Source of the DNA: Acidobacteriota bacterium
Lineage (GTDB): Bacteria > Acidobacteriota > Terriglobia > Terriglobales > Acidobacteriaceae
Direction: 5' to 3'
Assembly (NCBI GenBank): GCA_021806005.1
Contig: JAJZDM010000024.1
Coordinates: 1-39,811, forward strand
DNA length: 39,811 nt
Both the position numbers and the translations under genes were made by a program. Below, piece by piece: positions 32,898-33,050 of this stretch; the stretch's first letter is position 1, and each line of letters begins with the position of its first letter. Under the pieces are notes generated by a model, which did no database searches, was not told the DNA's origin, and saw nothing but the letters and a program-made list of their open reading frames with translations.

Positions 32898-32984
32898 ATG
32901 ATCTTCTGTTGCACCAACGCTGCTGGAATGCACATGGATGTGACCATGTGTAGCCGGTTGTGGGTGCGTGCCGGAACGGTCTGA
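32898..32984 (+). CDS. Met/Cys-rich leader peptide of the metY-metX attenuator
   Basis: A 28-codon ORF: MIFCCTNAAGMHMDVT, then MCSRLWVRAGTV and TGA. Of the 28 residues, 4 are Met and 3 are Cys, including a Cys-Cys pair at positions 4-5 and the run M11-H-M13. No Shine-Dalgarno sequence is visible. A TAGCAT -10-like element at 32882-32887 would start RNA near 32895, so a leaderless transcript is possible (weak evidence). The ORF lies 119 bases before metY, ends just before an intermediate hairpin, and contains one arm of the antiterminator. This is the layout of ribosome-controlled attenuators, with codons for the very amino acids the operon makes. Confidence 0.65.
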   Translation: MIFCCTNAAGMHMDVTMCSRLWVRAGTV

Positions 32985-33023
32985 TGCGCTAGCGCAGATA
33001 TGATCAGGTTCTGAACGGCTCAC
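32948..33023 (+). promoter_or_regulatory. Antiterminator pairing in metY leader
   Basis: GTGTAGCCGGTT (32948-32959, inside the leader ORF) can pair with AACGGCTCAC (33014-33023), which is the left arm of the terminator. All ten bases of the latter are paired, with only single-base bulges at T32951 and G32957. Between them an intermediate hairpin (32981-33007, containing the palindrome TGCGCTAGCGCA at 32985-32996) would bring the arms together. The two structures exclude each other. Confidence 0.6.
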
Positions 33024-33050
33024 GATCCTCAGGGATGGTGAGCCGTTTTT
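33014..33050 (+). terminator. Intrinsic terminator/attenuator upstream of metY
   Basis: Stem AACGGCTCAC (33014-33023) / GTGAGCCGTT (33038-33047), extended inside by ATCC/GGAT, running into TTTTT (33046-33050). It lies between the leader ORF and the metY ribosome site, so it can only work by ending transcription before the structural genes. Confidence 0.85.

Follow-up and report, generated by a model that had tools for sequence, protein, structure and literature searches.

What controls the metY-metX operon of this acidobacterium? Control of methionine genes is usually attributed to riboswitches, T-boxes or repressor proteins. The original prediction was a leader-peptide attenuator with Met and Cys codons. 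The window (the whole stretch of 39,811 nucleotides that was analysed) and its relatives bear this reading out, through a leader in 79 of 86 loci, co-evolving arms and the lack of a riboswitch: metY-metX are very probably controlled by a ribosome-mediated transcription attenuator that senses how much charged tRNA-Met and tRNA-Cys is available. Sequence comparison and computation show a conserved ORF, a promoter geometry, a terminator, a co-evolving pairing, and recurrence before sulfur genes with matching amino acid content; leader translation, ribosome stalling and the starvation response are what we infer. The elements of the region are as follows.

32861-32866, forward strand: candidate -35 hexamer TTGCAT, matching in position the TTGACA/TTGACN of relatives
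32885-32890, forward strand: candidate -10 hexamer CATACT, after an 18-nt spacer and ending 7 nt before the leader ATG
32898-32984, forward strand: leader ORF MIFCCTNAAGMHMDVTMCSRLWVRAGTV plus stop, 28 codons, with ATG at 32898 and TGA at 32982-32984
32907-32912, forward strand: Cys codons 4 and 5 (TGT TGC); in the seven closest loci, window included, Cys5 is present in four and Cys4 in three
32928-32951, forward strand: main control-codon cluster Met11, Met13, Met17 and Cys18, by conservation in the seven closest loci
32956-32969, forward strand: candidate antiterminator 5' strand, within the ORF and directly past the control codons, from folding, conservation and the swap test in relatives
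32985-32996, forward strand: small hairpin TGCGC-TA-GCGCA directly 3' of the leader stop codon, seen by eye
33013-33050, forward strand: intrinsic terminator, with the stem at 33013-33048 and the U tract to 33050
33015-33027, forward strand: candidate antiterminator 3' strand, constituting most of the terminator 5' arm, from folding and the swap test
33091-33096, forward strand: Shine-Dalgarno-like AAGGAG of metY, from sequence
33104-34426, forward strand: metY, O-acetylhomoserine sulfhydrylase / cysteine synthase family (TIGR01326, 664.5 bits, cut-off 495.1)
34423-35535, forward strand: metX, homoserine O-acetyltransferase (NF001209, 362.3 bits, cut-off 331)

Both genes were identified with NCBIfam profiles. 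The start of metX overlaps the end of metY by 4 bases, and its score against TIGR01392 is 363.5 bits, under the cut-off of 500. The ORF directly 5' of the attenuator (32048-32761) has a C-terminal J-domain-like region, with DnaJ and HscB profiles below cut-off.

The leader ORF contains four Met codons (the start counted) and three Cys codons, with Cys-Cys at codons 4-5. Its coordinates and counts were re-read and are correct as originally given. The N-terminal Cys run is this single pair, with no longer contiguous run of Cys codons. Met11 and Met17 are present in all seven of the closest loci (the window included, two of them identical), Met13 in six and Cys18 in five, and the residues adjacent to the control codons are variable. 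The leader of the window is weaker than most: its best ten residues hold four Met/Cys, codon 15 is Val in place of the Met found in the remaining six loci, and its promoter matches the consensus at 7/12 positions. When the 300 bases before metY are dinucleotide-shuffled 2000 times, 142 of the shuffles contain an ATG-started ORF at least as dense in Met/Cys, and thus the window ORF alone is weak, marginal evidence for a leader. Its status is settled by comparison with relatives and not by the window alone. By eye, several relatives also show a TGCG...CGCA stem at or near the leader stop, and in some cases its loop contains the stop codon.

A search of 300 same-family genomes at E <= 1e-120 gave metY in 107. 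The 86 loci considered here, with 71-100% identity, are all 87 matches at E <= 1e-207 minus one (L030 of genome G087), which has only 27 nt between the contig end and the start of metY; the matches beyond these 87 are distant paralogues or fragments. A Met/Cys-rich ORF upstream of metY/metX was expected, on the original prediction, to recur in other Acidobacteriaceae, and it is found upstream of metY in 79 of the 86 same-family loci, mostly with 25-35 codons; examples are MLQFLTNTTMAMCMCMLRTRGRVVS (L016), MSLDAHNSTMAMCICMCICGRGLWVPSRERSN (L013) and MNFSIQSMYMSMRMPMCIRGRLALDFESA (L018). A density of at least four Met/Cys per ten residues is reached in 77/86 metY regions, compared to 5/86 reverse strands and 36/1720 dinucleotide shuffles. 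The leader is absent in seven loci (L022, L025, L028, L029, L079, L098, L103). The DNA before metY in L022 and L025 reads as the end of another gene, probably homoserine dehydrogenase, and L103 has just 88 nt of upstream sequence. None of the five distant metY paralogues of the family that were fetched (L111-L115) reaches the same density. Several genomes carry two metY copies, the second more distant, e.g. L019/L111 in G003 and L072/L252 in G369. Among 80 loci from named genomes, the threshold is reached by 9/9 acidobacterial loci (Granulicella sp. and other acidobacterial MAGs, which probably overlap the 86) and by 1/71 loci of other phyla.

The pattern of codon use argues that the ORF is read as protein. 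In twelve 32-codon leaders from one genus, selected for gapless alignment, Met12, Met14, Cys15, Met16 and Cys17 are invariant, and both Cys columns, 15 and 17, are occupied by Cys in 12/12 leaders, with both TGT and TGC in use. By these comparisons the metY leader is under coding constraint.

A sigma-70-like promoter with at least 8/12 consensus matches, ending 4-10 nt before an in-frame ATG, was found in 60 of the 79 leader loci, and in 38 of those 60 the gap is exactly 7 nt. A score of 8 is reached by 128/3950 shuffles, a comparison that somewhat favours the native sequences, since the shuffles were mononucleotide and had one try each, whereas among the in-frame ATGs of each locus the one with the best promoter was chosen. 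The chosen ATG lies well within the longest ORF in 14 loci; in 12 it is an apparently arbitrary internal ATG with a score of at most 8, and one of these 12, L015, is counted among the 60. The promoter of the window is weak on its own, because its score of 7 (-35 plus -10) is reached by 352/3950 shuffles. A 7-nt gap implies initiation of transcription at the ATG or one base before it, that is, a leaderless leader. Thus, judging from promoter spacing, the transcript of the metY leader is probably leaderless or almost so.

A strong intrinsic terminator had been placed at 33014-33050; refolding gives a stem at 33013-33048 with -26.8 kcal/mol, and 0/200 shuffles are as stable (z -7.0). It is absent from the list produced by a simple terminator scan of the window. 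Across the relatives, scanning found an intrinsic terminator between the leader and metY in 70 of the 79 leader loci; the remaining nine were excluded from the swap test, the helix search and the ribosome model described below.

The antiterminator had originally been assigned to 32948-32959. An alternative pairing does exist, and in the window this stretch forms, by eye, ten pairs with two bulges. However, the close relatives L031-L034 do not keep it, and this exact strand is rejected; the conserved strand preferred in folding lies about ten bases downstream, at 32956-32969. The 75-nt fold with 32956-32969 paired to 33015-33027 has -26.8 kcal/mol, but 21/200 shuffles fold as well (z -1.45), and therefore the support for the antiterminator comes from the relatives and not from energy. 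At one pair of the antiterminator, the T-A of the window is replaced by C-G in L034. Covariation of the alternative pairings, proposed as a check together with the original prediction, was assessed by swapping arms between 70 loci. Native arms pair with a mean of -16.48 kcal/mol, compared to -14.07 kcal/mol for permuted arms, and 0/10000 permutations are as good. When each genus is represented by a single locus (22 genera, three draws), the native value is reached by 3, 0 and 1 of 10000 permutations, and with the stretch unrestricted (69 loci; native -16.55, swapped -14.45) the result agrees with that of the restricted test. As a control, the 48 nt before the leader show no preference for their own terminator arm. 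By this measure the antiterminator and terminator arms co-evolve across relatives. The search for the best helix covered a stretch of 48 nt, and in it the median start of this helix is 5.5 nt past the last control codon. There are 51 distinct helix sequences, some of just 4-5 pairs; the longer ones include GGACCCG:CGGGTCC, CCGTGGG:CCCACGG and GACCGTG:CACGGTC.

The effect of ribosome position was modelled by placing a ribosome at several positions and computing the antiterminator probability before the 3' arm of the terminator is made. In the window, the predicted probability is 0.19 without a ribosome and 0.78-0.86 with the ribosome at four positions in the Met/Cys cluster; past the cluster it is 0.79 three codons on, 0.15 six codons on and 0.13 three codons before the stop. 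At the stop codon it is 0.44, the antiterminator strand then being mostly upstream of the ribosome. Averaged over 70 loci, the probability is 0.59 for RNA with no ribosome. As the ribosome moves through the control cluster it takes the values 0.77, 0.72, 0.62 and 0.49; further on it lies at 0.46-0.52, and with the ribosome at the stop codon it is 0.59 again, a modest effect. Thus the direction predicted for the window fits attenuation, with a modest family average. At equilibrium of the full-length RNA the terminator dominates on average in every ribosome state (family mean 0.82-0.90), and so in this model the switch must be kinetic.

The following mechanism may be proposed. Transcription would start at or beside the leader ATG, and a ribosome would load on the leaderless end. 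When Met or Cys is short, the ribosome would stall in the Met/Cys cluster and keep open the upstream sequence, which would sequester 32956-32969 if left free to fold. The freed strand could then pair with 33015-33027, the terminator would be blocked and metY-metX transcribed. When both amino acids are plentiful, the ribosome would clear the cluster, the antiterminator strand would be masked or trapped, and the terminator would form. In the window, the folding of the leader itself would likewise hide the antiterminator strand if there is no translation.

Similar leaders were observed upstream of other genes. Two pattern searches for further leader-plus-terminator units were done, each over 300 same-family genomes; 8/15 loci in one pattern set and 2/6 in another turned out to be coding sequence or chance hits. 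A pattern search for leaders in the genome of the window itself gave 60 matches, against 25 with the reversed pattern, and is not informative. Six genomes from two genera have a leader with a terminator before a RimK-like ATP-grasp gene (L203-L205, L265-L267; 5/20 ATP-grasp loci plus L204). In L203-L205, which belong to one genus, the ATP-grasp gene is followed by a luciferase-like monooxygenase whose best profile is SfnG, under cut-off and over a truncated piece; this operon is likely involved in sulfonate or sulfone use. Leaders with terminators were also found upstream of cysD (L315-L317), of the uroporphyrinogen-III (siroheme-type) methyltransferase gene upstream of cysD (L306/L342) and of an SsuA-family gene (L320). 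In L323 (G152:C309, about 1450-1800) a Met/Cys leader with a terminator lies directly before a tRNA-Cys gene with anticodon GCA (1608-1683), and is followed by a second Met/Cys leader in tandem and then by the gene for a 110-aa Cys-rich protein, for which a family match was not found. One possibility is attenuation of the tRNA gene for the very amino acid that is sensed; this gene may also have its own promoter.

Cys/Met-rich ORFs are found before cysD in 23 of 30 fetched loci, many with Cys runs such as MVVFVNRACCCCRMLPCPCPRCCR. The analysis covered 25 of these loci, with an ORF search span of 350 nt (the whole upstream stretch for L342, L343 and L346), and 23/25 reach four Met/Cys per ten residues, the shuffle control applying to metY regions only. 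The five loci left out (L335, L337, L339, L349, L352) have no near leader, and no clear leader is seen upstream of cysD in the window's genome. A terminator was found by scan in 12/25 loci. Cys-run leaders, e.g. MKGVYCCCQCFSCCCC, precede cysD in L334, L338, L340, L341, L347 and L353; as the scan found no terminator there, translational control or another type of terminator is possible. The share of Met in Met+Cys is 0.21 in the 23 cysD leaders and 0.59 in the 79 metY leaders (Mann-Whitney p 8.5e-11, with relatedness ignored). This match between leader composition and pathway is the strongest reason to think that the leaders sense charged tRNAs.

Outside the family the picture is sparser. Among 63 metY loci from other acidobacterial families, one of which (L065) has 114 nt of upstream sequence and another (L237) masked bases, four have a leader with at least five Met/Cys per ten residues: L070, L223 and L234 of family f34, and L238 of f62, which has Met only (...PAMMVMRMLVMRM...). 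A fifth candidate, L232 of f71 (...GCTCMCLAMGNARCG), is sited further upstream of metY. By eye, a hairpin follows the leader in all five, that of L238 lacking a clear U run. The leader of L234 contains ten bases, CGCGAGAGGG, with exact complementarity to the 5' arm and loop of the terminator.

Could the region be explained otherwise? A chance ORF before an ordinary terminator with constitutive read-through would account for the shuffles that match the window ORF, but not for recurrence in 79/86 loci or for the arm-swap test. For the family this explanation is rejected, given also the shuffle controls, and overall we consider it scarcely credible. It is also very unlikely that the conserved bases form the aptamer of an unrecognised riboswitch or a protein-binding RNA, with the ORF as a by-product. 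A SAM-I riboswitch does precede metY in another acidobacterial family (L061 of f23, 75.9 bits), the sole one in 19 metY loci scanned. At the leader site, however, there is no Rfam match at any useful score: the window gave zero matches at gathering scores, and loosened scores added a chance microRNA match over the terminator only. SAM riboswitches and T-boxes are thus rejected for this site, neither family being matched; a known riboswitch here would have counted against the original prediction. Moreover, conservation tracks the reading frame, with synonymous changes in Cys codons, and apart from the Met/Cys codons and the arms much of the sequence drifts.

The remaining alternative retains translation of the leader and changes the signal: the nascent Met-Cys peptide would itself stall the ribosome, not through tRNA shortage but by binding a small molecule (methionine, SAM or cysteine) or a metal, copper for example. 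Met/Cys motifs can bind metals, and several genera strongly conserve the motif MAMCMCM. On the other hand, arrest peptides usually need fixed residues, whereas here the exact sequence varies widely (MSMRMPMC, CCMCMC, MCMDMC, CCLRARTC) with Met/Cys content constant, leader content shifts with the downstream pathway, and the identified gene contexts are sulfur genes and not metal export. We assign such an arrest-peptide sensor a small probability, and retain attenuation through charged tRNAs.

SAM-I riboswitches (RF00162) are matched above cut-off in 44/100 same-family genomes. In the eleven loci viewed (L283-L293, where L293 is G000:C120:54400-56700) they precede a gene reading as threonine synthase and not met genes, and TIGR00260 (thrC) is above cut-off in 4/4 of these loci that were scanned. 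One of the eleven is the single match in the window's own genome, which is on another contig. These riboswitches are rarer in genomes with the metY leader (5/26) than in the rest (39/74), by a hand count with Fisher p 0.005 and relatedness ignored.

Several known systems resemble parts of this one. Classical attenuators (trp, his, leu, thr, ilv, phe) share the control codons, the alternative hairpins and the match between product and sensed amino acid; the metY leader differs in the use of Met plus Cys, the probable leaderless start and the phylum. According to the accessible text of PMC3766115, Rfam at that time listed attenuators for His, Leu, Thr and Trp, and Ile/Val and Phe attenuators had also been described. 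Leaderless poly-Cys short-ORF attenuators were reported in mycobacteria (Canestrari et al. 2020, doi 10.1111/mmi.14498, via the accessible parts of PMC9094748 and PMC9031893, cited in PMC13236596). As presented there, these are leaderless short ORFs at the head of operons, rich in a sulfur amino acid, with elongation speed as the sensor; the acidobacterial metY leader is likewise a short, sulfur-amino-acid-rich ORF, is probably leaderless and would sense in the same way. However, they have contiguous Cys codons and control downstream translation (PMC9031893, in its accessible part), whereas the metY leaders have alternating Met/Cys, an intrinsic terminator and a co-evolving antiterminator. A contiguous Cys run of the mycobacterial type is not present in the window leader, which has one Cys-Cys pair, but is present in many cysD leaders of its relatives.

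In Streptomyces lividans a putative leader, metL (...GARCMCRRMCAF), with Met and Cys and a leaderless transcript, precedes metNIQ (PMC8079986, accessible text). It shares with the metY leader the Met/Cys peptide and the position before methionine genes, and its leaderless start matches the one that is probable for metY. The authors name methionines and threonines, and state that a typical Rho-independent terminator is missing. The case differs in being from one species and a transporter operon, and in the accessible text it is a proposal without a comparative or functional test. The cysS leader uORFC-8-2 of Rhodobacterales has tandem Cys codons and a terminator, with predicted ribosome-mediated attenuation; as given in the accessible text (PMC8632094), it differs in controlling cysS, in using Cys only and in its architecture. 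The beta-proteobacterial metXZ RNA element contains a predicted terminator/antiterminator before metX or metZ, with the mechanism left unexplained in the accessible text (PMC4239095), which describes six conserved regions and a possible pseudoknot and does not mention a leader ORF. In actinobacteria, Cys leaders without conserved terminators were described (PMC1262725, accessible text). A literature search, with thin coverage of subscription papers, did not find a Met or Cys attenuator described in acidobacteria. The novelty suggested originally has to be narrowed in view of what the accessible texts report on leaderless poly-Cys attenuators of mycobacteria and the putative Met leader metL of S. 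lividans.

The metY-metX attenuator seems to belong to a phylum-specific sulfur regulon. On balance we favour, with some reservation, a regulon of Acidobacteriota run by leaderless leader peptides with the Met:Cys ratio tuned to the pathway: Cys runs before cysD, alternating Met-Cys before metYX and before siroheme-type methyltransferase, sulfonate uptake and monooxygenase genes, and a leader even before tRNA-Cys. Sulfur amino acids would then be read by translation, and not by SAM riboswitches, MetJ or CysB.

Such leaders would explain what many unannotated ORFs of 25-35 codons do. They would also provide a natural series of control-codon contents that vary with the pathway, and a case in which attenuation from a leaderless mRNA can be tested. 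Methionine is required at every translation start, and hence the way a Met-rich leader reads a shortage of Met becomes a sharp and now testable question. A terminator-based Met/Cys attenuator that one acidobacterial family has conserved, that occurs in no fewer than two or three further families and that recurs upstream of further sulfur genes would add a class of sulfur-amino-acid sensor in an abundant and little-studied soil phylum.
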